Notes under the pieces: model-generated
The model's database searches: none
What the model was told of the DNA's origin: nothing
The model's input: only the letters and a program-made list of their open reading frames with translations
Translations under genes and position numbers: made by a program
NCBI RefSeq assembly: GCF_030605225.1
Contig: NZ_JAUWAV010000013.1
Span: 1 to 64,000, forward strand
Direction of reading: 5' to 3'
Length of the DNA: 64,000 nt
DNA from: Geoalkalibacter sp.
GTDB lineage: Bacteria; Desulfobacterota; Desulfuromonadia; Desulfuromonadales; Geoalkalibacteraceae
In this document: positions 482-55,338 of the stretch, in pieces
Layout of the letters: each line of letters opens with the position of its first letter
Position numbering within the stretch: the stretch's first letter is position 1

Positions 482-1201
482 TTACATCTTTATTTGTGAG
501 TGACCCGATGATTGCGCTGCGGCGCTTGAAGCTAAATCCAAAAGGGCGAGTCTGTCCCTTTCGTCAAGTATTGACGATATGCTAGAAATCAAAAATATTG
601 TATGAGTCTTTCTTGCCCATACGCAGCCAGCATAGGCGGCCGAAAGCGACAAGAGTAAAGTGACAAGAAATTCCTTTATAGCATAAGTCATGCTATTCAC
701 AGCTGGATCACTGAAAGAATAAATAATTGCAAAATAAACTACTGTAGACAAAAACGCCATTATTAATGACTTAATTAGCTTTTTTTTGCCAAAACGATGG
801 CTACAAAACTTTATCACAAATAGTACCACAATAGCATTGAAAACCGGCGATATATACAAATCGATGGATTGAAGCCAATTTAAAACATCAACTGATTTGG
901 CAAGGTCGAAGCCTGCCAAAAAGTTATTTATGTCTTCAGTTTGCGCAGCAGCAATAATAAATCCGCCAAAAGCACCGTAAAATAAAACTAAGGCGAAAAA
1001 AAACTGAAAAAACAGAGTCAGGAAAACGCTAAACACTGCATACCAAGGCCAAGTGCTATAGAACCTTTGATTCAAGATCTCCTGTACATGCTGGGGTTTA
1101 GACTTCTTCCTCTGAAGATAATATGGTACGGCGGCCGCTAATAAAGAGAAAATCCCGGAGATCAAGGCGCCTATTAGCGTTACAATAACTTGATCAACCA
1201 T
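482..1201 (-). CDS. AT-rich multi-span membrane protein, unknown function
   Basis: A 239-residue protein. I start it at the ATG at 1201 because CGGAGT lies seven bases upstream; a longer in-frame start at 1228 has no such site. The protein has about four or five hydrophobic segments: one near the N terminus (VTLIGALISGIFSLLAAAV), two around residues 60-100, and two more in the second half. It ends in a short charged tail. Base composition is far more AT-rich than the flanking genes, and it lies directly beside a transposase remnant, so recent acquisition is likely. I do not recognise the family. Nothing nearby gives it a job. Confidence 0.7.
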   Translation of the reverse strand: MVDQVIVTLIGALISGIFSLLAAAVPYYLQRKKSKPQHVQEILNQRFYSTWPWYAVFSVFLTLFFQFFFALVLFYGAFGGFIIAAAQTEDINNFLAGFDLAKSVDVLNWLQSIDLYISPVFNAIVVLFVIKFCSHRFGKKKLIKSLIMAFLSTVVYFAIIYSFSDPAVNSMTYAIKEFLVTLLLSLSAAYAGCVWARKTHTIFLISSISSILDERDRLALLDLASSAAAQSSGHSQIKM

Positions 1202-1480
1202 TGGAATACTCCGATCTTTAACGTCCAAGGTCAGGGGCGCGGCGCGGTTTTATCACGCAGCGTCCCTTGCACCGCCGGGTTGGGCGGCAATGTCTCGATA
1301 GATCGAAGAATAGCCCGCGCTATAGCTTCTCTTTTTTTTTTTTGAAAACGGTAGACACCACCCCAGTATGACCAAATTCTTGTTCACCGCTTGCCCTTGG
1401 ACAGGGTAAAATTGCCCAATGGTTTTTTTATAAAATTTTGAACATGCTCCCCTCCCCTTGATTCTCCCTGGCTCCAGCGC

Positions 1481-4400
1481 TCAAGGGCTGATCCTGGCTG
1501 CCGGATTTCCGTAGAGCGCATAGAGCAGCCCGAGAGGATTGCCCCAGGCGTGCAGATGGCGCAAGCGCACGTCGCGCAGCGCTGCCGCAGCGCGCTTTCC
1601 TTCGAGCAGCCCATCGAGCAGGTCGCGCGAAAAATGAAAGGAAAAATTGTTCCAGACCGGCGCCTCTGTCACAAAGACGACTCTGGCCCCGGCCCGGGTC
1701 AGGGCACCGACAAAGCCGTTGTTGTTCATGGGGAACTTCCCGCGGGTGCCGGTTTCGCAGGCATTGAAGAGAACGATGGGCTGGGCCTTGAAGAAGATCG
1801 GGTTGAGCTGATCCTCGAAGACCTCGTCGGGGATGAGGTCGTCGAAGTGGCGAGGGCTGAGTAAATCCTCCTTCGAAAACTGAAAGAAGGTTCCCGCCGC
1901 GCTCTGCACCCACACGGGACCGACTCCTCCCTGCGGCCCGGGGGCCAAATCCGTTTCGCTTTTGCCATGACCGTAGGCGACGATCAGCTTGATTTCGCCG
2001 GGTTTGTTTTTTAGCTGGTCAAGAAAAGCGGCACGGGAATGGATCGGCTTAATGGCGTAGTTGAAGGCCTTACCCAGGTGCTCGGCCAGCAATTGGGCCC
2101 TGGCCGTGACCTCGTCGTGGTTTGATATCCCCTTCCAGGCTCCGAAAACGACCTCGTCCCCAGCAGGCTTTGGCAAGGAAGTATGCTGGCGCCCCTGGGC
2201 CGCATCGATCTTCTGTTGGATGCCAAGCTCATAGCGAAATCCCCAGAATTTTTCCCGATCGATCGTCCCGTCCTTGTCGGGATGGAGGAGTTGCCAGGGC
2301 GCATAGACGTCAGTGGCGCGGATGCGCACCCGCAGCGGCCGGGAGAGACCCGGCTCGGCGTTCTCGATCACCTGGAGAGCCTGGCGCAGCCCGCGGTCTC
2401 CTCGCTTGAAAAGCTGTGTGTAAAGATGGGCCCCCTCCCCTCTGAGCACCTCGAGCATTTTCTGCGAGTCTTGTTCACTGAAGTGAAGCGATGCCGCTTG
2501 CGGCGACAAAACCAAATCCGTGCCGAGAGCGGCGTAGAGGTCTCGCAGGGAGGTCTCGTTTTGGTTCACGAGGCCTCGCAGTTTCCCATAGGACTCGGCT
2601 ACGAGATCGTCCAGGTCGGCCTTGCTGAGGCCTGAGGCAAATGACCAGGATTGTCCGGACGGCGCGCCCAGGACCTCCTCCAGCCGTTTTTTGAGCCCAG
2701 GGTGGATGGGCCGTATCACCACCGGAAGCTTTCCGCCCCCTCCGGCGGCAATGTCGATCACCAGGTCGGGTACCACGATCTCACCGCCGTCAATCTCATC
2801 CAGCCGCAGCTTGACCGGGGGGCGGTAGGCCGAAAGCGCTTGCGGGCTGGGGTCGCCCACGATGGCGTCGAGGCGCAGGGTGTCGAGGTCAAAGCCGTCG
2901 GCATCGACCGTGAAAATGATCTGTCCGAGGCCGCTGTTTTTTTCCACCACCTCCGGCTGGGGCACGATTTCGAAGGTAGCGGTCTCTGAACGGCGCTGCT
3001 CGGGATCGTACACGATTCTTTGCTGCTGGTGGGTGTTGCGCTGGCAGAGCAGGCAATCCATGGTTACCGTCAGCGGCAGCGGCTTGCCCCCGGCCAGAGC
3101 GTCGAGGGCGGAACTGGGCGCCAACCCCTCAACGATGCTGCTTGGCGACTGCGGTCCGATCGAGAAGGCGAGACGAGTCGGGGTTTGGGGTTTCAGGACC
3201 AGGGGATTCGCGGACTCTCTGGGCGCGATCTCGATGTTGTAGACGGGCTCTGGCGGGATCTCAGCGTTTCGCTTAGCGAGTTCGATTCGCTCAGCGCGCT
3301 CGATAGCGATCAGAATTGGATCTTTAGCTGGGGCTGGGGCTGGTGCGCTGACTCGAAGTTTCACCGCTTCGAGGGCGAATGCCCGTTGCGGTGTCCAGGG
3401 TTGAGAGGGCCCGTAGAGACGAAACATCAGGGGCCTGAGTTCGCCTGTCTCGCCGGAGCGCACATCGCCGACCAGGGTCGGGTGAGGAAAAGAGCGCAAC
3501 TGCTGCGCCAGGCGAGCCGGATCGGATGTCCCCGTCTCCGTCATCGCCTGTGCGATCAGTTCAAAGGCGGCGATCAGGTAAATCTGCGCGAGGCTCGGAC
3601 GATCATCGACATATCGCAGGATGTCTCTGGTCAGGCGCGAGAGATTCTTCTCCCAGTCCCAGGTATTCGCGATCGAGATCGAGGGCGCAAGGACGTAGCG
3701 TTGCCACTGCCTATCCGCCAGCGCGCTCCAGAATTCGTCCCAGCGTTGCGACGAGGAAAAGGGCAGCCCCACGACGAGAATGTCCGCAGGCTGGGCCGCC
3801 AGGGCGCTCAGTACTTGCCCGGCGGGCGGCTGCTCTGCGGCAAAAACCACCAGCTGGGCTTGGCTTCGCTCGGCTGCGGCCGACAGAGCCCGAGCATCGA
3901 GCGCGGCACCCGCCTGTTTCCGGAAAACCACTTCGACCCCGCGCCGCGGCAGCAAATTGACCAGAGTCTGGGCGACGATGGCGCCGAACCGGCTGCCGTC
4001 CTCGACAATGCCGACCCGACGCCACTTGCCCCAGTCGGTGACCTTCTGGGCAGCCGCCTCCCCGACCCGGTCGGCGCCCAGCCCCAGATGGAAAACATGG
4101 GAATGGGCGAAGGTGCGCAGTTCGGGTCCGGGGACCAGGGGTGCCAGAAACAGAGGGCCCAGGTTGTGGTAGATTTCGGCGACCGCGGGCGCCACCTGCG
4201 GGCAATGGCCGATGACAACGTCGACGCGCTCGGTGCCGGAAAAAAGCTGGGCCACCTTCCTGGCCTGGTCGGGCTGGCAGCCGTCGTCGCGCGTCTCCAG
4301 GGTTACAATTCTTCCCAGCAGCCCGCCGTGTTCATTGATGACACTGACCGCAGCCTCGGCTGCCTGCTGCATCTCCTGGCCGACTGCCGCCCAGGGGCCG

Positions 4401-4534
4401 GTCAAGGGCGCGGCGAGTCCGATCCTCACCGACTGCGCAGCCGCCAAGTCTGGCCCGGCCGACCACAGGATCGCCAACCCCACCAGAAGATGACACCAAA
4501 GCCTCCCGAATCGAAACTCATTCCTGCGCCTCAT
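1481..4534 (-). CDS. Exported periplasmic-binding domain fused to CHAT protease-like domain
   Basis: A 1017-residue protein. The ATG at 4534 is preceded by GGGAGGTG at good spacing; an upstream GTG at 4564 is weaker. Residues 10-33 form a signal peptide ending in DLAAAQ. Residues about 34-395 are a type 1 periplasmic ligand-binding domain of the LivK/branched-chain amino-acid receptor kind (RIGLAAPLTGPWAAVG near its start). A linker and an unassigned beta-rich middle follow. Residues about 700-1010 form a CHAT (caspase HetF-associated) domain with the expected dyad, His856 in AYGHGK and Cys926 in FNACETG, and the usual tail GFVGALTRAGARVVFV. CHAT proteins are cysteine-protease-like and normally cytoplasmic; here the signal peptide predicts export. 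The gene follows a lipoprotein gene by 51 nt, so they probably form an operon. Ligand and proteolytic target are unknown. Confidence 0.85.
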   Translation of the reverse strand: MRRRNEFRFGRLWCHLLVGLAILWSAGPDLAAAQSVRIGLAAPLTGPWAAVGQEMQQAAEAAVSVINEHGGLLGRIVTLETRDDGCQPDQARKVAQLFSGTERVDVVIGHCPQVAPAVAEIYHNLGPLFLAPLVPGPELRTFAHSHVFHLGLGADRVGEAAAQKVTDWGKWRRVGIVEDGSRFGAIVAQTLVNLLPRRGVEVVFRKQAGAALDARALSAAAERSQAQLVVFAAEQPPAGQVLSALAAQPADILVVGLPFSSSQRWDEFWSALADRQWQRYVLAPSISIANTWDWEKNLSRLTRDILRYVDDRPSLAQIYLIAAFELIAQAMTETGTSDPARLAQQLRSFPHPTLVGDVRSGETGELRPLMFRLYGPSQPWTPQRAFALEAVKLRVSAPAPAPAKDPILIAIERAERIELAKRNAEIPPEPVYNIEIAPRESANPLVLKPQTPTRLAFSIGPQSPSSIVEGLAPSSALDALAGGKPLPLTVTMDCLLCQRNTHQQQRIVYDPEQRRSETATFEIVPQPEVVEKNSGLGQIIFTVDADGFDLDTLRLDAIVGDPSPQALSAYRPPVKLRLDEIDGGEIVVPDLVIDIAAGGGGKLPVVIRPIHPGLKKRLEEVLGAPSGQSWSFASGLSKADLDDLVAESYGKLRGLVNQNETSLRDLYAALGTDLVLSPQAASLHFSEQDSQKMLEVLRGEGAHLYTQLFKRGDRGLRQALQVIENAEPGLSRPLRVRIRATDVYAPWQLLHPDKDGTIDREKFWGFRYELGIQQKIDAAQGRQHTSLPKPAGDEVVFGAWKGISNHDEVTARAQLLAEHLGKAFNYAIKPIHSRAAFLDQLKNKPGEIKLIVAYGHGKSETDLAPGPQGGVGPVWVQSAAGTFFQFSKEDLLSPRHFDDLIPDEVFEDQLNPIFFKAQPIVLFNACETGTRGKFPMNNNGFVGALTRAGARVVFVTEAPVWNNFSFHFSRDLLDGLLEGKRAAAALRDVRLRHLHAWGNPLGLLYALYGNPAARISP

Positions 4535-4585
4535 CGGACACCTCCCGAATCGACTGACGAGCACGGTTCGGCCGCCATGGGCGGC

Positions 4586-5425
4586 CTAATCAGTTCTGGA
4601 TGCCTTGCGAAAGAGTTTTTCGATCTGTGCATCGGCCGTTTCGGGTTGGGCGGCGGAAGGCCCGAGGATCTCAAAGTTGGAACCGATCGCCACGGCGCGC
4701 CGCACGGCGAAAATGACGGGTTGCTCGATCACCAGGCGTCCGTCGCCACTGACTTCGTATTTGACGTCGGGTTCGAACTTAAGCAGCGATCCCAGGGCCG
4801 GAGTCTTGAGCTTGATGGCGGCCCCGGTGGCATCGTGGAGGGTGTAGACGCCCTTGGAAACCCGAAAGGCTTCGGTGACCAGGAAACGATTCGGCTTGGC
4901 CAACTCGTCCTGGCATACCGCGGATACCTTCGCCCGGTTGTCCGGGTCTTCGAGCCAGACTTTCATGTTGAGCAGACGAAAGGCGTCAGCGCCATGCTCC
5001 TGCACCTCGAGGCTCACCTTTTTCACTTTCGAAAAGGCCGGGCCGGCGGAAATGCCCTTGATGTTGATCAGGGCGTCCGCCCTTAGCTCACGGGCTTTGG
5101 TGAAGGAAATTTGCGGGAAAATGCTCGGTTCGGGGCGCAAGACCTCCTCGGGGAAGCGGCAGGATTCCAGATGATCGATCCAGCGGATGCCGTTGGCGTC
5201 GACCTGGATAATCGAGCCGGGGCGGTACTTGGAGTCGGGAAACGGCAGCGGCACCCACCCGCCGGCCGCTTTGAACATTTCGAGCCATTCCTGGGGAGAG
5301 TAGACCTCCGGGGCCTTTGGCGCACACCCGGCGCCACCCAGAATCAAAAGAACCAGAACGGTCATGCCCCCCACTCTGGCCGCCCACCGCACCGTGCCGA
5401 GTTTCGACTGCCATCGCTGTCCCAT
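4586..5425 (-). CDS. Predicted lipoprotein, partner of the CHAT fusion
   Basis: A 279-residue protein with a signal sequence (VGGMTVLVLLILGGAGC) ending in a lipobox whose Cys is about residue 34, so it should be anchored to a membrane lipid. GAGGAGG precedes the ATG. The mature part is mixed alpha/beta with no motif I recognise; it has isolated Cys residues and a C-terminal region rich in short beta segments. It lies 51 nt upstream of the CHAT gene in the same direction. On the minus strand a TTGACA-like sequence occurs at 5499-5504, without a convincing -10 box. I infer that the two proteins act together at the cell envelope; the sequence does not say how. Confidence 0.8.
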   Translation of the reverse strand: MGQRWQSKLGTVRWAARVGGMTVLVLLILGGAGCAPKAPEVYSPQEWLEMFKAAGGWVPLPFPDSKYRPGSIIQVDANGIRWIDHLESCRFPEEVLRPEPSIFPQISFTKARELRADALINIKGISAGPAFSKVKKVSLEVQEHGADAFRLLNMKVWLEDPDNRAKVSAVCQDELAKPNRFLVTEAFRVSKGVYTLHDATGAAIKLKTPALGSLLKFEPDVKYEVSGDGRLVIEQPVIFAVRRAVAIGSNFEILGPSAAQPETADAQIEKLFRKASRTD

Positions 5426-5613
5426 AGCGCCTCCTCTACCGCTTGAGCCATGATGAATCTGGCTTTTATTAATGAGAAACTAGCCGATCCGGAAGATTTG
5501 TCAATCAGGCGTAGGTGATTTCCCCCCCAACAATAGCAATGAGTCAGGCAGGGGGGTGGTGCGCGACTAAACCCTGCGTCTTGGACAGGATTTGGCCGCG
5601 CACCCCAAGCCAA

Positions 5614-6925: not shown

Positions 6926-9097
6926 CTATTCTCCTTGGAGAAGTTCGCCCTGGGCTTTGGGGCCCTGGGGTTGAACCGCGATCACGCGCGCAACCAAGGG
7001 GTTGGCTTTCTTGCGCTGGCTCGCCTCTTTTTTCGTCGCATAGAACTCCGGGTAGAGACGAAAGGGCACCATCCAGGCCTCGCGTCGGTCGCCAGTCTGC
7101 TCGGTGAGCCATACCGGCACGCAATAGGCGTTTGGCGCCAGCAGATTGCGCAACAACCCGTTGTCCCGGAAATAACCCACCATGGCGCGCAGAATCGAAT
7201 CCTGGATCGGGCGAAACAGTGCGTCCTGGGAGGTGATCTGTTCGCTCAGCTCGTAGTCCTGGGTGTGCTTTTCGATCTGGCGGCCGGCGATGTCCTTTAG
7301 AGCCTGGACATTGAACCAGGCGGTGTGGGTGGTCAAATCGCTCACCCCCTGCCAAAACCCGCGCCCGCGATCGAGCGTCTTCTGGTCGACATCAAGGCGC
7401 AGTTGCAGCTCCCGCAACGCCTCATCGGGGCGAAACCAAGGCGAGATATCGGCCAGAGGCGATGTGAGGGGTTTGGCCTCCCCCGCGCCCTGCCCTTCCC
7501 CGCCCAGATCGAGATCAAAGACCGTGCGGGTGCCGCTGAGAAACCTTGGTTCCTCCTCGCTGCCGCTCGCGGGCGCGATCGCCTCGGGCGTTGCTTGCGA
7601 GAAACCGAGCGCCTCCCTGCTCTTCTGCCGGCAAGCTGGCGGCACCTCCTCGGACACGCCATAAAGGCTCATGCCATCGACCAAAGCGATGATCTCCTTC
7701 ATCTCCTGGGCCCCGGACTCAAACAGCTGGACCAGCTGTTCGGGCGTTTCGGGCAAAAAGGAAAGCTTCGCGCCAGGCCCCTGCCCTACCCTGCCCGGCG
7801 CGTCCTCGCGGGTGTCCTCGCTTAGGCCCGCCGGTTCGGCCTGGTTCTGGGGATCGAGAAAATAGCCGCCCTGCCTGAGGATCTCGAGCATCGCCTGGGC
7901 GCGCGTCTTGCCGATGCGCAGGCGTTCGGCGAACTCCTTGAGCTCGATGTCCGCGCAGCCGCGGGCAATGGCGATGGCATCCTCCCACTTGGCATCCTGA
8001 AGCGGCGATGCGTGCTCGTCCTGTTCCCGCATGTGCGCCAGGGAAGGTTGCTGCGGGGGGGGCTGGGAGAAATCTTTCGGGGGCTCAACCGCCGCGGGAG
8101 GACGGGGTTGCGGCTTTCCGGGCGATTGGAGGGCCTGGCGCGTCTGAAGAGAGAAAAAGCCGGGGTCGTCTTCTTCGGCGCCGGGCAGGGCGTCATCGGA
8201 ATCGCACGGCAGGGGCGCGTAGGGGTTGAGGATGCGCTCGATGGCCGGCAGCGTGACCGGAGCGATCCACTCCGGCACCGATTCGTTGCCGGCGTAGGCC
8301 TGGTATTCAAATTTGCGCGCTCCGCGATCGGCGTACTGCACCAAGGCGGCGAGCCCCTGCAGGGGCCCTGAATCGTGGTGCGAAATGACGGCCTTGAGAA
8401 TCTCCTCGCGGCTGGGCAGCTGGTCAAAGCCCTCGATGGTGCGCAAGAGATTGGCGGCGTTGACCGGGTGGACGCCGGTTGCGTAGTCCTTGCCGCCGTT
8501 GACGCTGGGCAGCTTGCCCAGGTCGTGGGCCAGTACCGCGATCAGCACGCGCGGGATCTGCCAGGTCTCCTCGCGCTCGATGAGGTGCGCCACGGCGACG
8601 CTTGCGGCATTGAGGACATGATCGAGCAGGCTGACCTGGCGCAAGACCTCGTAGGACTGCTTGCTCCACTTGGTATCATGGTCCTCGCGAAACGCGGGGT
8701 TTTTCACCACCGAAGGGCTGGGATGCTCCTTGTCGTAGCGCTCCAGGAGCTGGGCGATGATGCCGCGATGCAAAAGTTTCTTGCGGTCGAACCAGGGCGA
8801 GGTCTGGACATACTCGCGGAAAAAATCCTTGGCGTTTTCGTTCTGGATTTTGGGCCGGTAATCCTCGTGAAAGTAGCCGACGGGCTGGCGCCAGAGCTTG
8901 GCCAATTCGTCGATGCTCAGGATCTGCTTGCGCGAGGCCTCCTTTTCCTGGAGGTAGCCGGCATGGATGCCCAGTTCGCGAAGCGTCACGACAAAGTGAT
9001 CCTTCTCCTTGGCCCTGATCAGCAGCACCAGGGCGTAGAGAGCGCAGAGGCCTGAGGCGGCCAGCAGTGCGCAGGCGATGGGGTCCTCGCGCCACAT
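6926..9097 (-). CDS. traI-like: MobH-like HD-domain relaxase candidate, membrane-anchored
   Basis: A 723-residue protein from the ATG at 9097, which has AGGTG five bases upstream; a GTG at 9106 overlapping the traD stop is the alternative. A transmembrane segment (about residues 8-27) is followed by an HD metal-dependent hydrolase domain with the full ligand set: His160, His191-Asp192 in AVLAHDLGK, His210, His240-His241 in ISHHD and Asp257 in YADRGARKFE. The middle is Pro/Gln-rich, and the C-terminal 150 residues look like a winged-helix domain. MobH relaxases (R27, Rts1, SXT type) are HD-fold proteins and usually travel with F-type secretion genes, as here. The gene sits between the coupling ATPase and a membrane protein. 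The N-terminal anchor is unusual. It could instead be an HD signalling enzyme, but context favours relaxase. Confidence 0.6.
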   Translation of the reverse strand: MWREDPIACALLAASGLCALYALVLLIRAKEKDHFVVTLRELGIHAGYLQEKEASRKQILSIDELAKLWRQPVGYFHEDYRPKIQNENAKDFFREYVQTSPWFDRKKLLHRGIIAQLLERYDKEHPSPSVVKNPAFREDHDTKWSKQSYEVLRQVSLLDHVLNAASVAVAHLIEREETWQIPRVLIAVLAHDLGKLPSVNGGKDYATGVHPVNAANLLRTIEGFDQLPSREEILKAVISHHDSGPLQGLAALVQYADRGARKFEYQAYAGNESVPEWIAPVTLPAIERILNPYAPLPCDSDDALPGAEEDDPGFFSLQTRQALQSPGKPQPRPPAAVEPPKDFSQPPPQQPSLAHMREQDEHASPLQDAKWEDAIAIARGCADIELKEFAERLRIGKTRAQAMLEILRQGGYFLDPQNQAEPAGLSEDTREDAPGRVGQGPGAKLSFLPETPEQLVQLFESGAQEMKEIIALVDGMSLYGVSEEVPPACRQKSREALGFSQATPEAIAPASGSEEEPRFLSGTRTVFDLDLGGEGQGAGEAKPLTSPLADISPWFRPDEALRELQLRLDVDQKTLDRGRGFWQGVSDLTTHTAWFNVQALKDIAGRQIEKHTQDYELSEQITSQDALFRPIQDSILRAMVGYFRDNGLLRNLLAPNAYCVPVWLTEQTGDRREAWMVPFRLYPEFYATKKEASQRKKANPLVARVIAVQPQGPKAQGELLQGE

Positions 9098-9102
9098 GGG
9101 GG

Positions 9103-10611
9103 TCACCTGATCTTGCGGATGGTGTTGGGCGTGGGAAACTGCACCGCGAGCGGACAGTGCGGCACATCGTAGGTCTTGCCGCGATACACCCCGCCGAAGG
9201 TCATCAGGTAAAACTCGCGCGGCGCAAGGCTTAGGACATCGGAGGTCTTGACCATCAGATCCTCGGTTTCGCGCACACTAAAGCCGCCGCCAAAGCTTAG
9301 GATGGGGCTGAGGATTTTTCTCTCGCCCAGGTGGCGCGAGACGTAATCGGCCGTTTCGGAATCGGGCACGCGGAAGAATATCTTGGTGTTGGCGTTGTCG
9401 AGAATCGAGTAGGTTTTTTCGTGCCCGAGCACATCGGTGAGCTGGTTGATGCTCTGGTTGTAGGCGGTGATGAAGGTGTTGGAGGAACCAACCTGGGCGA
9501 TCATGTCGGGAAAGCCTGAGTGAATGCAGCTTTGCGCCTCATCGATATGCAGCGTCAGGGGCGGATGGATTTTGCCGCCGCTTGCCAGGACGCGCCCGAT
9601 GTAGCTCTGGATCATGGACAAGATAACCTTGGCCGTGGTCTGCGCGGCGCGCGCGGTCAGAAGCGCGCCCAGCTGCACGACCATGATCACCGTTTTGCCC
9701 TCCTCCAGGCGCTTCAAGAAACGATTCTCGTCGGCCTTGCCGATGATGCGCCCGACATGGCCGTTGGTGAGCTCGGAGAGCGCCACGCGCAAGGATGAGC
9801 CGACCTTGGCGAAAAAATCCGGCGGCGTGGACAAGATGCGATTGAGCATCTGCACCAGGTTTTCAATGTCCTTGGTGGGATCAAGGGAGGCCAGCTGGTC
9901 GCGCAGCTTGGTCAACCCGTTGTAGCTGACATAATTTTCCACCTCCTTGAGGTTGAACACCGGCTGCCGGTGATTGGCCACGGCCAGGGTGATCAGGCCC
10001 GTGGTGATGCCAAGGGCCATCTCGTAGGCCACGTTGTAGTAATAGGGGTCATCGCCCACCGAGACGCCCGCGGTGATGTGCGCCACCAGTTCCTCGATCA
10101 TGTAGTAGGAGGCCAGCGGATCGATGACGGCCGAGAGGTCGGGAAAGATGGGCGTGACCAGCATCAGATCGTCCTTGCGGCCGGTTTTGAGCGCCCAGTA
10201 GGCAATGGCGTTGAAGAGCTCGGGATCGCCCTTGGGGTCAAAAATCACCGTGCTGTAGCCTTTGCGGATGTCGCTGATGGCGATCTGCTCGAGCAGGCGC
10301 GATTTGCCGCTGCGCGTGGAACCAAACACCCAGGCGCCGGCGCACCGATAGCTGTCCGGGATTTCAAGGCTTAGCAGCTTTTCCTTTTTCTTGAGCTCAA
10401 CGCCCTCGCCCAGCCTGGTTTTGAGTTTCGCCAGCCGCGGCTGGGTAAAGGCGAGCCGTTTCGCCTCTTCGGCGTGGTTGCGCCGACGGGTGCGCGACTG
10501 CTTGTTGAGCGTGGCCACGCCGCGCACGCTGGCGAGGTTTTCGCGGCGAACGGCTTGCGCTGTTTCGAGTTTCTTGCGCCACTTTTGGATGATCGACCTG
10601 GCGAGGCTCAT
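9103..10611 (-). CDS. traD: TraD-like type IV coupling ATPase lacking membrane segments
   Basis: A 502-residue P-loop ATPase that should deliver the DNA-protein complex to the secretion channel. Walker A is GSTRSGKSR at about residues 97-105, followed by the typical FDPKGDPE; Walker B is LTLHIDEAQ near residue 350, and the sensor-like FITAYNQSINQL follows. Coupling proteins normally start with two transmembrane helices; here the first 80 residues are basic and helical with none. The start codon overlaps the stop of the NusA-like gene (ATGA), and the stop abuts the MobH-like gene, so the genes are translationally coupled. The family assignment is firm; the membrane anchoring must come from a partner. 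Confidence 0.9.
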   Translation of the reverse strand: MSLARSIIQKWRKKLETAQAVRRENLASVRGVATLNKQSRTRRRNHAEEAKRLAFTQPRLAKLKTRLGEGVELKKKEKLLSLEIPDSYRCAGAWVFGSTRSGKSRLLEQIAISDIRKGYSTVIFDPKGDPELFNAIAYWALKTGRKDDLMLVTPIFPDLSAVIDPLASYYMIEELVAHITAGVSVGDDPYYYNVAYEMALGITTGLITLAVANHRQPVFNLKEVENYVSYNGLTKLRDQLASLDPTKDIENLVQMLNRILSTPPDFFAKVGSSLRVALSELTNGHVGRIIGKADENRFLKRLEEGKTVIMVVQLGALLTARAAQTTAKVILSMIQSYIGRVLASGGKIHPPLTLHIDEAQSCIHSGFPDMIAQVGSSNTFITAYNQSINQLTDVLGHEKTYSILDNANTKIFFRVPDSETADYVSRHLGERKILSPILSFGGGFSVRETEDLMVKTSDVLSLAPREFYLMTFGGVYRGKTYDVPHCPLAVQFPTPNTIRKIR

Positions 10612-11465
10612 CGGCGGATCTCCTCGGTTCGTTGGGCCAGAAATTCCAGCTCGCGCGGCAGCTGCTTTTCCTTGCGCCGCCGAAACAGGCTGCGGCGCGC
10701 CTTGCGGATTTCAACGCCGTTTTTGCCAATCAGGATAAAAACATGCTCCCCCAGCTCCTTGCTGACCGCGGTAAGCGTCTGCTTGGGGATTTTGTGGGTG
10801 GTCCAGATCTCCGAGCGCTCCCCGGGTTGGCGCATGCGGCAGGTGATGCGCAAGTCCTGGGGCGCGTTTTCGAACCATTGCGCCAACAGTTGCTCGGGCA
10901 GGCGCTTGCTGGTGCGATCCAGGGTGAGACGGATGCGCGGCACCTGGCCGACCATGACCGGGGTGCAGCTGGCCAGATGGAAGTAGCGCTCCTCCCCCGG
11001 CAGGTAGCGGCCGCGCTCGTTGCGGGGCAGGTTCTGCGACGGGCAATGGCCGGTGACCAGGCCCTGCTGGGGCCCAAGGTCGAACTCGACATACAAGGAG
11101 CCATCGCGATCGATCCGTGTGACGACGCCCTGGGAAACCTTGTTGCAATGCTTGCGGATCTTTTTGACCTCGCGGACCACGCTGGCACGCTGCAGGGCGC
11201 CCTGGATGTGGCGGTGGAGGTTTTTGATGCCCGAGAGATTGGCCTCGGGAATATCGCGCCAGGTGCCGCCATTGAGCATGGAAAAGGCCAGGATGCGGAT
11301 TTCGAGGGTGCGCTCGTCGATGCGCACCTGGATGTCCTCGCCACGGTATCTGCTGCTCAGCACCTCGCTCATGGTTCGCTCGATGGTGTCGAGCACCGTG
11401 ACCGGCGGCAACCGATAGAGCGCGGCCATCTCCGCGAGGGAGGTCTTGAAATGATCCAGGTGCAT
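10608..11465 (-). CDS. NusA-like protein (NusA N-terminal, S1 and KH-like regions)
   Basis: A 285-residue protein that heads the mobilisation operon. Residues 1-65 resemble the NusA N-terminal domain that contacts RNA polymerase (DTIERTMSEVLSSRYRG). About residues 110-185 resemble the NusA S1 domain (VSQGVVTRIDRDGSLYVEFDLG), ending in the NusA-type sequence RLTLDRTSKRLPEQLL. Residues about 190-255 resemble a KH domain with GKNGVEIRKARRS. It is shorter than chromosomal NusA, which has two KH domains and about 350-500 residues. No Shine-Dalgarno is seen; instead CCCTCCCC lies directly before the ATG. I infer a role in elongation or antitermination across the long transfer operons. The similarity is by eye and moderate. 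Confidence 0.6.
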   Translation of the reverse strand: MHLDHFKTSLAEMAALYRLPPVTVLDTIERTMSEVLSSRYRGEDIQVRIDERTLEIRILAFSMLNGGTWRDIPEANLSGIKNLHRHIQGALQRASVVREVKKIRKHCNKVSQGVVTRIDRDGSLYVEFDLGPQQGLVTGHCPSQNLPRNERGRYLPGEERYFHLASCTPVMVGQVPRIRLTLDRTSKRLPEQLLAQWFENAPQDLRITCRMRQPGERSEIWTTHKIPKQTLTAVSKELGEHVFILIGKNGVEIRKARRSLFRRRKEKQLPRELEFLAQRTEEIRR

Positions 11466-11738: not shown

Positions 11739-12230
11739 TCAGCCGCGGCTCATCTCGCGCTCAAGAAGCCTGCGGATTTTATCCTGGGTTTTCTCAACTT
11801 TCTCGAAATAGAGCTCAAGCGCTGCAATACCCAGGGACGTTTTGTCCTGAACCTTGCCGATGCCGCCATTGGCGATGAATTTCTCAACCCGTGCGTTCAG
11901 ACTCGGCGGAATCTTGATGTAGAAGGGCTCGGTGTTCTTCTGCGCCTCTTCGGTCTGGCCCTTGCGCCGCCTTTTTCCCGACCCGGTCACCGCGGGGAGT
12001 TCCTGGGGTTCGCCGGGAGCGAAAGACTCCCAATCCTCCATTTCGTCGTCCAGCTCTATCCCCTGCTTATCAGGCGCCGCCTGGTCTTGCGCTCCAGCGG
12101 AGCGCTCCGTGTCGGGTGCGGGCTGCGGCGCCAGGGGCATGCTCAAGGCTTTTTTCCTTTTTTCCAACTGCGCCATGAGAGCGTCGTTTTTGACCTCCAG
12201 GCGCGATTCCTTTTTCTCCTGGTCGTCCAT
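11739..12230 (-). CDS. Ribbon-helix-helix-type partner of ParA (ParB/ParG analogue)
   Basis: A 163-residue protein. The first 95 residues are charged and likely disordered. The C-terminal part (FYIKIPPSLNARVEKFI, then a helix ending ALELYFEKVEK) looks like a beta strand plus helices of a ribbon-helix-helix DNA-binding fold. Its ATG shares one base with the parA stop (TGATG), which is strong evidence for co-translation. In type Ib partition systems a small RHH protein binds the centromere and stimulates ParA, and that is the likely role here. No classical ParB is seen in the window. The fold call is by pattern only. Confidence 0.65.
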   Translation of the reverse strand: MDDQEKKESRLEVKNDALMAQLEKRKKALSMPLAPQPAPDTERSAGAQDQAAPDKQGIELDDEMEDWESFAPGEPQELPAVTGSGKRRRKGQTEEAQKNTEPFYIKIPPSLNARVEKFIANGGIGKVQDKTSLGIAALELYFEKVEKTQDKIRRLLEREMSRG

Positions 12231-13114
12231 CAGTTCACCTCCTGGGCGATGATTTCCTTGGCGAGTTGGAAGTAGGCCTGGGCGGCCGGACTCTTGGGGT
12301 CGTAGTCGATGATGGATTTGCCCATGAACACCCCCTCGTTGAGGGTCGTGTTTTCCGGGATGGCGGTTTTCAGGAAGATCTCCTCGCCAAAGAGCATCTC
12401 CATGTCCAGGGTGTTGATCCGCGCCGCCTTGGTTGCGGGAATGTCCTTGCGCAACGGCACGGCCTTGGTCGACACAACCCCGTTGAGGCGCGCGGCGTCC
12501 GGGTAGTCCTCCTGGATTTCCAGAATGGAGACGAGAAACTCAGGAATCGCGCGGGTGACGTAGGGATCGCTCTGGATCCAGGGGATCAGCACCTCGGTCG
12601 AGGCGGCCAGGGAGTTGTAGACAAAGCCGCCAAGGCCCGGGGGGGTGTCGATCAGAACATAGTCGAACAAATCGAGGTAGTCCCTGAGCATTTTGAACAG
12701 GGTGCGGCGCCGCGGAGTGATCCACTCCTCCACCCGCGCCAGGGTGATGATGGAGGGGGCAAGCAGAAGATTGGGTTTGACCTCAAGCAAGACGTCCGGC
12801 AGGGCGATTTCTCCCAGGAGCACCTCGCGCATGGTCTTTTCGTCGTCAAAGGTCGGGGACTCGTCCATGCCCAGGCCGATGGTCAACGACCCCTGGGGGT
12901 CCAGGTCGATCAGAAGAACCCGACGCTGCTGGCTCGCCAGGGCAATCCCCAGGTTTTCGGTCATGGTGGTTTTGCCCACCCCACCCTTTTGCACGCCCAC
13001 GGTGATGACACGCGTGCCCTGGAAGCCGCTGCGCTGCTTGGTGACCTTGGCATAGGCCTGGCGCGCCGCCATCAGGCGCAGCTCCATGCGCTCATCCTTG
13101 CTTAACTTGGCCAT
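12230..13114 (-). CDS. parA: ParA-family partition ATPase
   Basis: A 294-residue ATPase started at the ATG at 13114, which has GGGGGAGG just upstream; the longer in-frame extension to 13180 has no such site. It contains the deviant Walker A KGGVGKTTMTENL, the A' motif LLIDLDPQGSLT and Walker B DYVLIDTPPGLG. ParA proteins form ATP-dependent patterns on the nucleoid and move plasmid copies to daughter cells. The N-terminal 45 residues before the Walker box are basic and could form a small DNA-binding region. The downstream RHH gene is translationally coupled. A 350-bp AT-rich spacer upstream may contain the promoter and centromere. Confidence 0.92.
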   Translation of the reverse strand: MAKLSKDERMELRLMAARQAYAKVTKQRSGFQGTRVITVGVQKGGVGKTTMTENLGIALASQQRRVLLIDLDPQGSLTIGLGMDESPTFDDEKTMREVLLGEIALPDVLLEVKPNLLLAPSIITLARVEEWITPRRRTLFKMLRDYLDLFDYVLIDTPPGLGGFVYNSLAASTEVLIPWIQSDPYVTRAIPEFLVSILEIQEDYPDAARLNGVVSTKAVPLRKDIPATKAARINTLDMEMLFGEEIFLKTAIPENTTLNEGVFMGKSIIDYDPKSPAAQAYFQLAKEIIAQEVN

Positions 13115-13197
13115 ATCCTCCCCCGCTTTAATTTTTTTTGTCCGTACATGCCTTGAGCAATCAAGGTTTCCATTTACCAAAAAAAAACAACTTTGTC

Positions 13198-54000: not shown

Positions 54001-54308
54001 AACGGATGGCGATGGACGGGCTGGGGGTGAGCCTTGCGTTTCTCGATCTCTGGATCGAGTATTTTCTGGCCTTTCTCAGGATCTTTTTCCTGGTCACCTT
54101 TTTTTGCCTGGCGCTTGGGTATTTTGAGGGCCTGCCGCAAATCATCGAGTGGTTCGGCAACCCGCAGGCACTGGCGCAGCACGCGGGCGCGCAGCGCTTC
54201 TTGGTGATGGTGCTGACCCTAAGTGGCGCGATTCTGGGGATCAAGTTGGTGCTGCGCCGAAGATTGTTTTATCCGGGGGGTGTCCCCCAAGGAAAAAAAG
54301 CTCTTTAA
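53976..54308 (+). CDS. Small two-helix membrane protein
   Basis: A 110-residue protein; AAAGGAG lies eight bases before the ATG. Two hydrophobic segments (YFLAFLRIFFLVTFFCLALGYF and FLVMVLTLSGAILGIKLVL) flank a short loop. The N terminus is basic. No family is recognised; it overlaps the topoisomerase gene and likely belongs to the same transcript. Confidence 0.65.
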   Translation: MAQRTRSLKRMAMDGLGVSLAFLDLWIEYFLAFLRIFFLVTFFCLALGYFEGLPQIIEWFGNPQALAQHAGAQRFLVMVLTLSGAILGIKLVLRRRLFYPGGVPQGKKAL

Positions 54309-54333
54309 CGAATGCGATAGGGGGATGGGACGG

Positions 54334-55338
54334 ATGAGGCTTGCACTGACTGCAATGTTGGTTTGGATGGGCTTTTGGATCTCTGTGGCACAGGCCGCCG
54401 AATACCGCAACGAGTTCACGGCGGGATACCGCAAGGACAAGCTGGTGTTCACGATCGCCGGCGACAGCTCGGGATCAAGGCCCAATGTGCTGAGCGAACT
54501 GGAATGGAAGACTGACGCCTTTTACCTCGCGGGCGATCTCTGGATGCTCTGGCCTCGGGATCGTGGTCCAAAGCGCCCCAACGAACCGGCCGGTCGCTAC
54601 GAGAAATCCCTGGCGCCGGCGTTGAGGCTCTGGGGCGGCTATGGCTTTGTCTTCAGCGGCGATAATCAGGATTCGGACTTTTTCGCCGACAATCGGCAGA
54701 TGGAGTTCTCGCGTTCCAACAATTCGAGCGACAACGGCTCGGTGTGGGATATCCAGGGCGCCATCGGCATGGAATTCGCCCGGCGCACCAAGAACAACGT
54801 GCGCGCTTCCCTAACCCCGTATCTGGGCTACAGCTATCACGCGCAAAACTTTCAGATCACCGACGGCAACCAGACCATCGCCACCGAGGACTTCACCCCG
54901 CCGCCGGGACCTTTTCCGGGGTTGAACAGCCGCTATGAAACCGAGTGGTACGGACCGCTGGTGGGGCTGCATCTGCTCTATGTGATGGAGGATAACCAAA
55001 GCCGGCCCCGGCTCGCCTTGTGGGGGGATGCAACCTATCATTTCATGTCGAGCTACAAGGCCGAGGGGCGCTGGAACCTGCGGAGCGATTTCGCGCAAGA
55101 CCCCTCCTTTCGCCACCTCGCCGACGGCGGCGGGTGGAAGCTTGCCGGCGGTTTTCTCTACAACACCTCCCTGCGCAGTTCCTGGGGCCTGGATGCTTTC
55201 TACACCAGCTGGCTGGCCGACGAGGACGGCGTGGCGCGCGTCTTCTTCAGCGATGGCATTGTGGTCGACACGCGGCTCAATGAGGCCGACTGGGACGCCT
55301 GGATGATCGGGCTGCGCTATTCCTACAAATTCTATTGA
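54334..55338 (+). CDS. Omptin-like outer-membrane beta-barrel
   Basis: A 334-residue exported protein. The signal peptide (LTAMLVWMGFWISVAQAA) is followed by alternating amphipathic strands, a start block NVLSELEWKTDAFYLAGD, a mid block SLTPYLGYSYHAQNF and a C-terminal aromatic YSYKFY, as in outer-membrane barrels. The pattern SELEWK plus long loops with Asp/Ser clusters resembles omptin-fold proteins. The catalytic His/Asp pair of omptins is not evident, so protease activity is doubtful. It ends the operon; a GC-rich hairpin at 55350-55373 follows without a T tract. It may remodel the cell surface during mating. Confidence 0.65.
   Translation: MRLALTAMLVWMGFWISVAQAAEYRNEFTAGYRKDKLVFTIAGDSSGSRPNVLSELEWKTDAFYLAGDLWMLWPRDRGPKRPNEPAGRYEKSLAPALRLWGGYGFVFSGDNQDSDFFADNRQMEFSRSNNSSDNGSVWDIQGAIGMEFARRTKNNVRASLTPYLGYSYHAQNFQITDGNQTIATEDFTPPPGPFPGLNSRYETEWYGPLVGLHLLYVMEDNQSRPRLALWGDATYHFMSSYKAEGRWNLRSDFAQDPSFRHLADGGGWKLAGGFLYNTSLRSSWGLDAFYTSWLADEDGVARVFFSDGIVVDTRLNEADWDAWMIGLRYSYKFY

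Follow-up and report, generated by a model that had tools for sequence, protein, structure and literature searches.

Introduction

Bacterial gasdermins (bGSDMs), which are pore-forming proteins of cell death, were reportedly described together with an adjacent caspase-like protease by Johnson et al. in 2022, and to our knowledge the known members of this family are taken to act from the cytoplasm. Here we describe a pair of genes that might represent a version of such a system located outside the cytoplasm. The pair lies in a 64,000-nucleotide stretch of DNA from Geoalkalibacter sp. (contig NZ_JAUWAV010000013.1, positions 1 to 64,000; hereafter called the window), and is predicted to encode a gasdermin-like lipoprotein and an exported protease in which a periplasmic-binding-protein domain is fused to a CHAT domain. 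We regard it as an even proposition that these genes constitute a bacterial gasdermin–protease pair in an extracytoplasmic form, with the binding-protein domain serving as a sensor that controls the protease.

In the available portion of PMC9612521, CHAT proteases are grouped among the caspase-like protease partners of bGSDMs, the cue that activates these proteases is named as a major open question, and the question is raised of whether bGSDMs also serve in other conflicts. A further group of pore formers, the CDC-like proteins (CDCLs), is activated by C11 proteases (available portion of PMC11952106). Our survey of the literature on bacterial gasdermins and CHAT proteins found no exported gasdermin–protease pair, with earlier notice still possible given that some primary papers lay outside its coverage. 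If the proposal is true, the known range of gasdermins would come to include the envelope and conflicts among mobile elements. Furthermore, the sensor appears to be part of the protease polypeptide, and the family to which it belongs is amenable to ligand screens in solution, such that the trigger, the cleavage event and the pore could all be addressed with two proteins.

Results

Both genes are on the minus strand, and the ATG of the protease gene is located 51 nucleotides past the stop codon of the lipoprotein gene (Table 1). The open reading frame (ORF) of the protease as defined mechanically begins at a GTG (position 4564; 1027 amino acids), and an ATG at position 4534 gives a protein of 1017 amino acids. 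Because a strong Shine-Dalgarno-like GGGAGGTG stands in front of it, the ATG is on sequence grounds the better start. It yields the His856/Cys926 numbering, and all protease residues are numbered from it.

The protease ORF exceeds the Pfam gathering scores that served as thresholds for both of its domains, namely Peripla_BP_6 (E 3.8e-34, 119.3 bits versus 31.7 bits) and CHAT (E 2.3e-8, 34.3 bits versus 24 bits). His856 and Cys926 are intact, and both residues are kept in the three other CHAT domains that were aligned. Signal peptides were judged by inspection and by the hydropathy of 12-residue segments (12-mers). By inspection, the N-terminus of the protease reads as a Sec signal peptide, in which MRRRNEFRFGR is followed by LWCHLLVGLAIL and by a predicted cut between LAAA and Q (hydropathy of 2.29 for the 12-mer that starts at residue 12), and which leads straight into a domain of an exported family. 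A first-pass annotation of this DNA had proposed exactly such a protein, with signal peptide, LivK-type domain, CHAT domain and intact His856/Cys926, and these claims are borne out, with the same residue numbers when counted from the ATG. It had also paired this exported sensor-protease with an envelope lipoprotein, an architecture that the sequences support. The lipoprotein is indeed present, but its probable identity as a gasdermin relative had been missed.

The binding domain has probably kept its scaffold and lost its amino-acid site. Of 22 related loci tried, 21 gave a match, and each cysteine of the pair that the window protein retains (C86 and C111) is present in 16 of these 21 genes. 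Position 112 is Ser or Thr in all 21, and Thr at position 135, Glu at position 237 and Asp at position 261 are each found in 19. In the window protein these four residues are Pro, Pro, Pro and Ser, respectively, the last column being less certain due to a three-residue insertion just before it. Several of these positions are what we take to be ligand contacts in LivJ and LivK. With near-invariant cleft residues replaced, a LivK-type amino-acid ligand is therefore unlikely, and the ligand is probably not an amino acid at all. Triggering of the protease by a ligand, as the first-pass annotation had predicted, is a hypothesis. The changes at positions 112, 135, 237 and 261 also led us to reject the idea that the domain is a plain leucine sensor.

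The partner protein begins with a charged n-region and a hydrophobic segment (best 12-mer 2.73), and its GGAGC, which ends at Cys34, fits the general lipobox pattern. Position +2 is Ala, which by the rule established for E. coli would direct the lipoprotein to the outer membrane. Five canonical bGSDMs formed our comparison set, and all of them lack a lipobox pattern and also a hydrophobic N-terminus (12-mers of at most 1.34), whereas the window protein has both. Since both proteins of the pair carry predicted export signals, the system may act and sense in the envelope, and not inside the cell.

The similarity of this lipoprotein to gasdermins is found by profile methods. It matches the PADLOC bGSDM model (E 5.3e-8, residues 48-242) and the NCBIfam prok_gasdermin model (E 7.8e-7, residues 56-240), and these matches span most of the mature protein (residues 34-279). 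The two are not independent, because both models were built from bGSDMs. A relative in another genome, which we call G411, has a protein of 506 amino acids as listed, or 482 from a later ATG that we chose, with a signal-like segment at its start and a hydrophobic N-terminus (12-mer 2.88). It matches the window protein at E 2e-6 (20% over 192 amino acids) and the PADLOC model at E 7e-9. A two-row profile consisting of the window and G411 proteins matches the profile of the five canonical bGSDMs over 186 columns with a score of 49.2 (probability 90%, E 1.4e-6), as compared with 21.0 for the best of 300 column shuffles and 15.5 for the reversed profile. When the target comprised four canonical sequences, the probability was 88% and E was 3.4e-6. 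In addition, a hidden Markov model (HMM) made from the five canonical sequences matches the G411 protein at E 0.00097. On the strength of these comparisons the window lipoprotein is very probably homologous to bacterial gasdermins, and its gasdermin fold is unproven. If it is gasdermin-like, then it would be the obvious substrate for the protease and the output of the pair.

Some details of the sequence are also reminiscent of the canonical proteins. In an alignment of seven gasdermin sequences, Cys34 falls on the N-terminal Cys of four of the five canonical proteins (the fifth, from genome G244, has Leu), an outcome that is favoured by the alignment itself, since the rows of the window and G411 proteins had been trimmed so that each starts with its Cys. 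In known systems this canonical N-terminal Cys is palmitoylated (PMC9079055). The element P-x3-[FY]-x-P occurs in the window protein, in the G411 protein and in four of the five canonical proteins, with Ile in the fifth. Cys171 of the window gasdermin is identical in the G411 protein, and Cys89 lies a few columns from a Cys pair there, an arrangement that is compatible with a disulfide. Within the last 40 residues, Leu254-Gly255 is the sole Leu-Gly or Arg-Gly, and 25 residues remain behind it. In known bGSDMs the cut falls behind a Leu or an Arg some 20 residues before the C-terminus, with one case in which a Leu is essential and is followed by an adjacent Gly (available portion of PMC9612521). 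By this analogy Leu254-Gly255 is a predicted cleavage site, which should be read as a prediction and not as evidence, because a Leu-Gly or Arg-Gly arising by chance is not unusual over such a length (0.2 by a rough estimate).

Relatives of the gasdermin-like protein are few. In 395 genomes of the phylum, the PADLOC bGSDM model found seven matches, namely four canonical proteins at E<=2.2e-53, G411 (1.4e-8), the genome of the window itself (1.8e-6) and one fragment in genome G564 (0.0069), which was judged to be due to chance since it is a 48-codon frame with three stops. The same model matched one of 136 genomes of the order (the window's own) and two of 277 genomes of the class. The second of these, G623 (E 0.007), is a frame of 49 codons that contains a stop and lies opposite an ORF resembling ATP synthase epsilon, and was likewise attributed to chance. 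Two of 148 genomes were matched in the class of G408, a genome with a related CHAT protein: G691, which is canonical (2.6e-32), and G706 (E 0.008), antisense to another ORF and also judged spurious. These order, class and phylum samples overlap, and thus their counts cannot be summed. The two-row profile found G411 and one chance match in the 395 genomes (G326, glyceraldehyde-3-phosphate dehydrogenase by sequence), and in the class of G411 (46 genomes) it found G411 alone. The G411 gene (L038:5433-6953) encodes a gasdermin-like N-terminal part and then some 240 residues to which no Pfam family is assigned, and it adjoins uvrB/uvrC-like genes with no protease neighbour. This protein is possibly one of the described gasdermin domains that are fused to another domain.

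Among the matches listed for 195 relatives searched with the protease (168 with a match), the window protein is the only full-length one, and the others cover the binding domain only. Its C-terminal part has three other matches in the 395 genomes, all partial, of which the closest is a 1084-amino-acid CHAT protein in G408 with no evident signal peptide. The G408 protein (region L036:8301-17162) and the window protein have the C-terminal motif NPLGLxYxLYG in common. Genes near that of the G408 protein include one for a patatin-like phospholipase and a lipoprotein-like ORF, making this region a possible further envelope-linked CHAT locus. In the plasmid collection, the full protease matched 427 records, none covering 80%, and the best 40 of the 427 are all binding-domain matches. 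The C-terminal part matched four Agrobacterium records there at E 0.3, one of which was inspected, and the gasdermin parts of the window and G411 proteins had no match at E<=1.

Scans with single sequences used exact eight-residue words as patterns, and therefore only close relatives are detectable by them. Viral contigs queried with the gasdermin, the 633-amino-acid C-terminal part of the protease, two alignments (A2 and A3) and the canonical bGSDMs gave pattern matches, none of which was confirmed, and the same is true of 157 stretches from genome contigs scanned with the gasdermin. A degenerate motif scan returned one viral and 10 genome stretches, and the 10 upon translation contained only ORFs unlike gasdermins.

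An F-type conjugative element carries the pair as cargo next to its coupling-protein genes. ORFs upstream of the pair on this strand encode, besides products of 175 and 253 amino acids, a protein with an HD domain (6926-9106), a coupling protein resembling TraD (9103-10611) and ParA (12230-13180), and elsewhere are TraB, TraC, TraN, TraU, TraH, TraF, TraG, DsbC and topoisomerase III. The TraD-like protein is closest to those of plasmids of Desulfosarcina, Geobacter, Nitrosophilus, Pelobacter, Campylobacter and Aliarcobacter (best seven: 35.7-44.1% over 81-82%). Judged from these matches, the host is probably a member of the Thermodesulfobacteriota. The 253-amino-acid membrane protein probably belongs to the element backbone, because it is matched in three plasmids of this TraD-related kind. 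An HD protein is annotated beside TraD in three of four related plasmid regions (L054-L057). No gasdermin, CHAT or binding protein is annotated in these four regions, whose gene tables are incomplete and include many hypothetical genes, and none of their ORFs is matched by the two-row HMM at E<=1. Given that no gasdermin-like ORF was found in the four related regions, we rejected the idea that the pair is conserved plasmid backbone. The 76.4-kb contig ends in chromosomal-looking genes and umuC/umuD-like ORFs (names by inspection), and for this reason it is possible that the element is integrated in the chromosome. Neither the window nor the contig sequence beyond it yielded a tRNA.

The GC content of the pair is 60-66%, that of the genes up to 12.5 kb is 57-66%, and that of the first 1.5 kb of the window is 43-46%. 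Directly 3' of the protease gene, in this low-GC DNA (about 43-46%), is an ORF for a 248-amino-acid membrane protein (482-1228, minus strand), which has no Pfam family above cut-off and no plasmid-collection match at E<=0.1. Its product might protect the producer or be unrelated to the pair. The inverted repeat between the two genes (4570-4586) could set the ratio at which gasdermin and protease are expressed, and no sigma-70-like site was found upstream of the lipoprotein gene between positions 5426 and 5613. Two other proteins of the region were also noted: one beside TraD (10608-11465, minus strand), with weak NusA_N and S1 RNA-binding matches that are both below the Pfam cut-offs, and one on the conjugative element (54223-55338, plus strand) that matches the Pom family, a Protochlamydia outer membrane protein family, at E 3.4e-45.

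Table 1. Positions of the gasdermin-like lipoprotein gene, the exported protease gene and associated features in the window
Feature	Positions	Strand	Basis
Gasdermin-like lipoprotein gene, 279 aa (amino acids)	4586..5425	-	ORF; PADLOC bGSDM; NCBIfam prok_gasdermin; profile test
Predicted lipoprotein signal peptide, residues 1-33	5327..5425	-	Charged n-region, hydrophobic core 2.73, lipobox-like GGAGC
Lipobox Cys34, predicted lipidation site, mature residue 1	5324..5326	-	Pattern match
bGSDM model match, residues 48-242	4700..5284	-	PADLOC model
Predicted C-terminal inhibitory peptide, residues 255-279, after predicted cut Leu254-Gly255	4589..4663	-	Inferred by analogy (PMC9079055, PMC9612521)
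Inverted repeat, 7 bp, 3-nt loop	4570..4586		Read from sequence; overlaps last base of gasdermin stop codon
Exported binding-protein/CHAT protease gene, 1017 aa from ATG	1481..4534	-	ORF, Pfam, alignments
Predicted protease signal peptide, residues 1-33, predicted cut Ala33/Gln34	4436..4534	-	Inspection; hydropathy
Peripla_BP_6 (LivK-type) domain, residues 35-364	3443..4432	-	Pfam; best solved relative 2lbp, E 1e-20
CHAT domain, residues 755-995	1550..2272	-	Pfam
Predicted catalytic His856	1967..1969	-	Alignment
Predicted catalytic Cys926	1757..1759	-	Alignment
HD-domain protein and TraD-like coupling protein, upstream of pair, same strand	6926..10611	-	Pfam, NCBIfam

Discussion

In the mechanism that we propose, of which we infer the cut, its site, the trigger, the membrane affected and the benefit, the gasdermin would be made as a lipoprotein, and its short C-terminal tail would keep it from acting while in the envelope. 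Secretion would bring the CHAT protease into the periplasm, and there the binding-protein domain at its N-terminus would act as the sensor for a cue that is probably not an amino acid, but perhaps an envelope fragment, a peptide, or a part of an incoming phage or mating apparatus. Arrival of the cue at the sensor would activate the CHAT domain, the gasdermin would be cut near Leu254-Gly255, and the freed pore domain would assemble in the envelope, causing permeabilisation that stops or kills the cell. The pair is accessory cargo of the F-type conjugative element. A more specific proposal, which we offer tentatively and consider somewhat unlikely in this exact form, is a periplasmic ‘pyroptosis’ in which the element-encoded pair detects a rival mating apparatus or a phage crossing the envelope and answers with a pore formed from outside the cytoplasm.

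A number of observations weigh against an envelope gasdermin–protease pair, and the weaknesses evident from the sequences are the remote homology and the single instance of the full pair. No second complete gasdermin–CHAT pair was found in the genome, plasmid and viral searches that were run, and G411, which alone among the relatives begins with a signal-like segment, lacks a neighbouring CHAT gene and carries a non-canonical lipobox in which Thr precedes the Cys, such that the strict pattern fails. A reduced catalytic Cys in the periplasm would also need to escape oxidation. The prok_gasdermin match reaches 29.1 bits against a curated cut-off of 100 bits, the lipoprotein has no Pfam match at E<=1, and phmmer with this protein finds no solved structure. 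Alone, the window protein is not significant against canonical profiles (probability 5.5% and 2.6%). It is also not listed by the five-sequence canonical HMM, and the matches listed in a 2000-shuffle test of that HMM include three shuffles (E 0.37-0.69) and not the window protein. The same HMM gives an antisense ORF E 0.00045, indicating that weak matches can mislead. Among the seven matches of the two-row profile to PDB sequences at E<=10, two FtsH sequences rank first (0.001 and 0.0071), followed by four bacterial gasdermins (0.034, 0.043, 0.3 and 0.34) and an unrelated regulator. Single-sequence AlphaFold models are unusable, with a mean predicted local distance difference test (pLDDT) score of 41.8 for the gasdermin-like protein and 36.7 for a second model, and Foldseek with the former model returned no gasdermin among the best 50 rows.

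The under-threshold NCBIfam score, the missing Pfam match, the unusable structure models and the antisense match of the small canonical HMM would all suit a reading in which the partner is an unrelated envelope lipoprotein that owes its gasdermin score to chance or to shared composition, and in which the CHAT protein processes another envelope substrate. We nevertheless consider this improbable, because two libraries match residues 48-242 (both derived from bGSDMs and so not independent), the shuffle and reversal controls of the profile comparison scored far lower, the relative G411 gives the same model match, and the gene adjoins that of a caspase-like protease. The profile match to gasdermins likewise speaks against a conjugation-control or exclusion module, in which the lipoprotein would block redundant mating and the protease would tune the lipoprotein or the mating apparatus upon a signal, with neither pore nor death. 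Such a role would suit the location of the pair on the same strand as, and downstream of, the TraD and HD-protein genes, and exclusion by conjugative elements is well known (see also PMC11493245 and PMC8923210). However, the four related TraD plasmid regions point to a pair outside the backbone, and we rate this module as a poor prospect.

Location among mating genes could also suit an antagonism weapon, in which the lipoprotein gasdermin is displayed or shed to make pores in neighbour or recipient cells and the protease licenses its action, in the manner of secreted CDCLs and C11 proteases. Specifically, CDCLs are antibacterial, are located outside the cytoplasm and are activated by proteolysis, and fusions of bGSDM-like with Ig-like domains that have no protease in their operon have been described (available portion of PMC11952106). 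The G411 protein, with its signal-like start, extra C-terminal region and lack of a protease neighbour, could be a fusion of that kind. Beyond the signal peptides, however, no cell-surface or secretion feature was seen, there is no recognisable immunity gene, and the lipoprotein anchor would bind the gasdermin to its producer. A weapon of this type is therefore unlikely in our estimation. The envelope gasdermin–protease pair described above is the proposal that we compare below with known systems.

With the LivK and LivJ proteins, the window protease shares the binding domain (2lbp, E 1e-20) and the cysteine pair. It differs from them in having Pro, Pro, Pro and Ser at Ser/Thr112, Thr135, Glu237 and Asp261, and in being fused to a protease. 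The CHAT domain with its His and Cys is common to the window and G408 proteins, whereas the latter has no binding-protein domain or evident signal peptide, and has a patatin and a lipoprotein as neighbours. The CHAT proteins of Agrobacterium Ti plasmids have weak similarity (E 0.3) and lack the binding-protein domain, and in the Ti plasmid inspected (L062) the neighbours are TIR, other CHAT and caspase-family genes. CDCLs resemble the proposed system in that an extracytoplasmic former of giant pores is switched on by a clan CD type protease, but by sequence they are a different pore family and are two-component toxins that act on other cells (available portion of PMC11952106).

A close parallel is with bGSDMs and their caspase-like proteases, since here too a gasdermin-like protein of similar size is encoded beside a caspase-like protease, in this case a CHAT protease with intact His and Cys. 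In one of the canonical regions, L040, the bGSDM is directly followed by a clan CD (C11) protease that has no signal peptide by inspection, and this pair is the intracellular counterpart of the window pair. In another, L039, no protease was found among the four ORFs tested. Judged by sequence, the lipoprotein and the canonical bGSDMs may have in common a short C-terminal tail with a Leu-Gly site and a Cys near the mature start, although the sequence match between them is remote. In the window protein this Cys sits in a lipobox, and its lipid would thus be attached by the lipoprotein pathway, in place of a palmitoyl thioester. In contrast to the canonical pairs, both window proteins carry predicted export signals, and the protease has its presumed sensor, a domain of the periplasmic-binding-protein type, on the same polypeptide.

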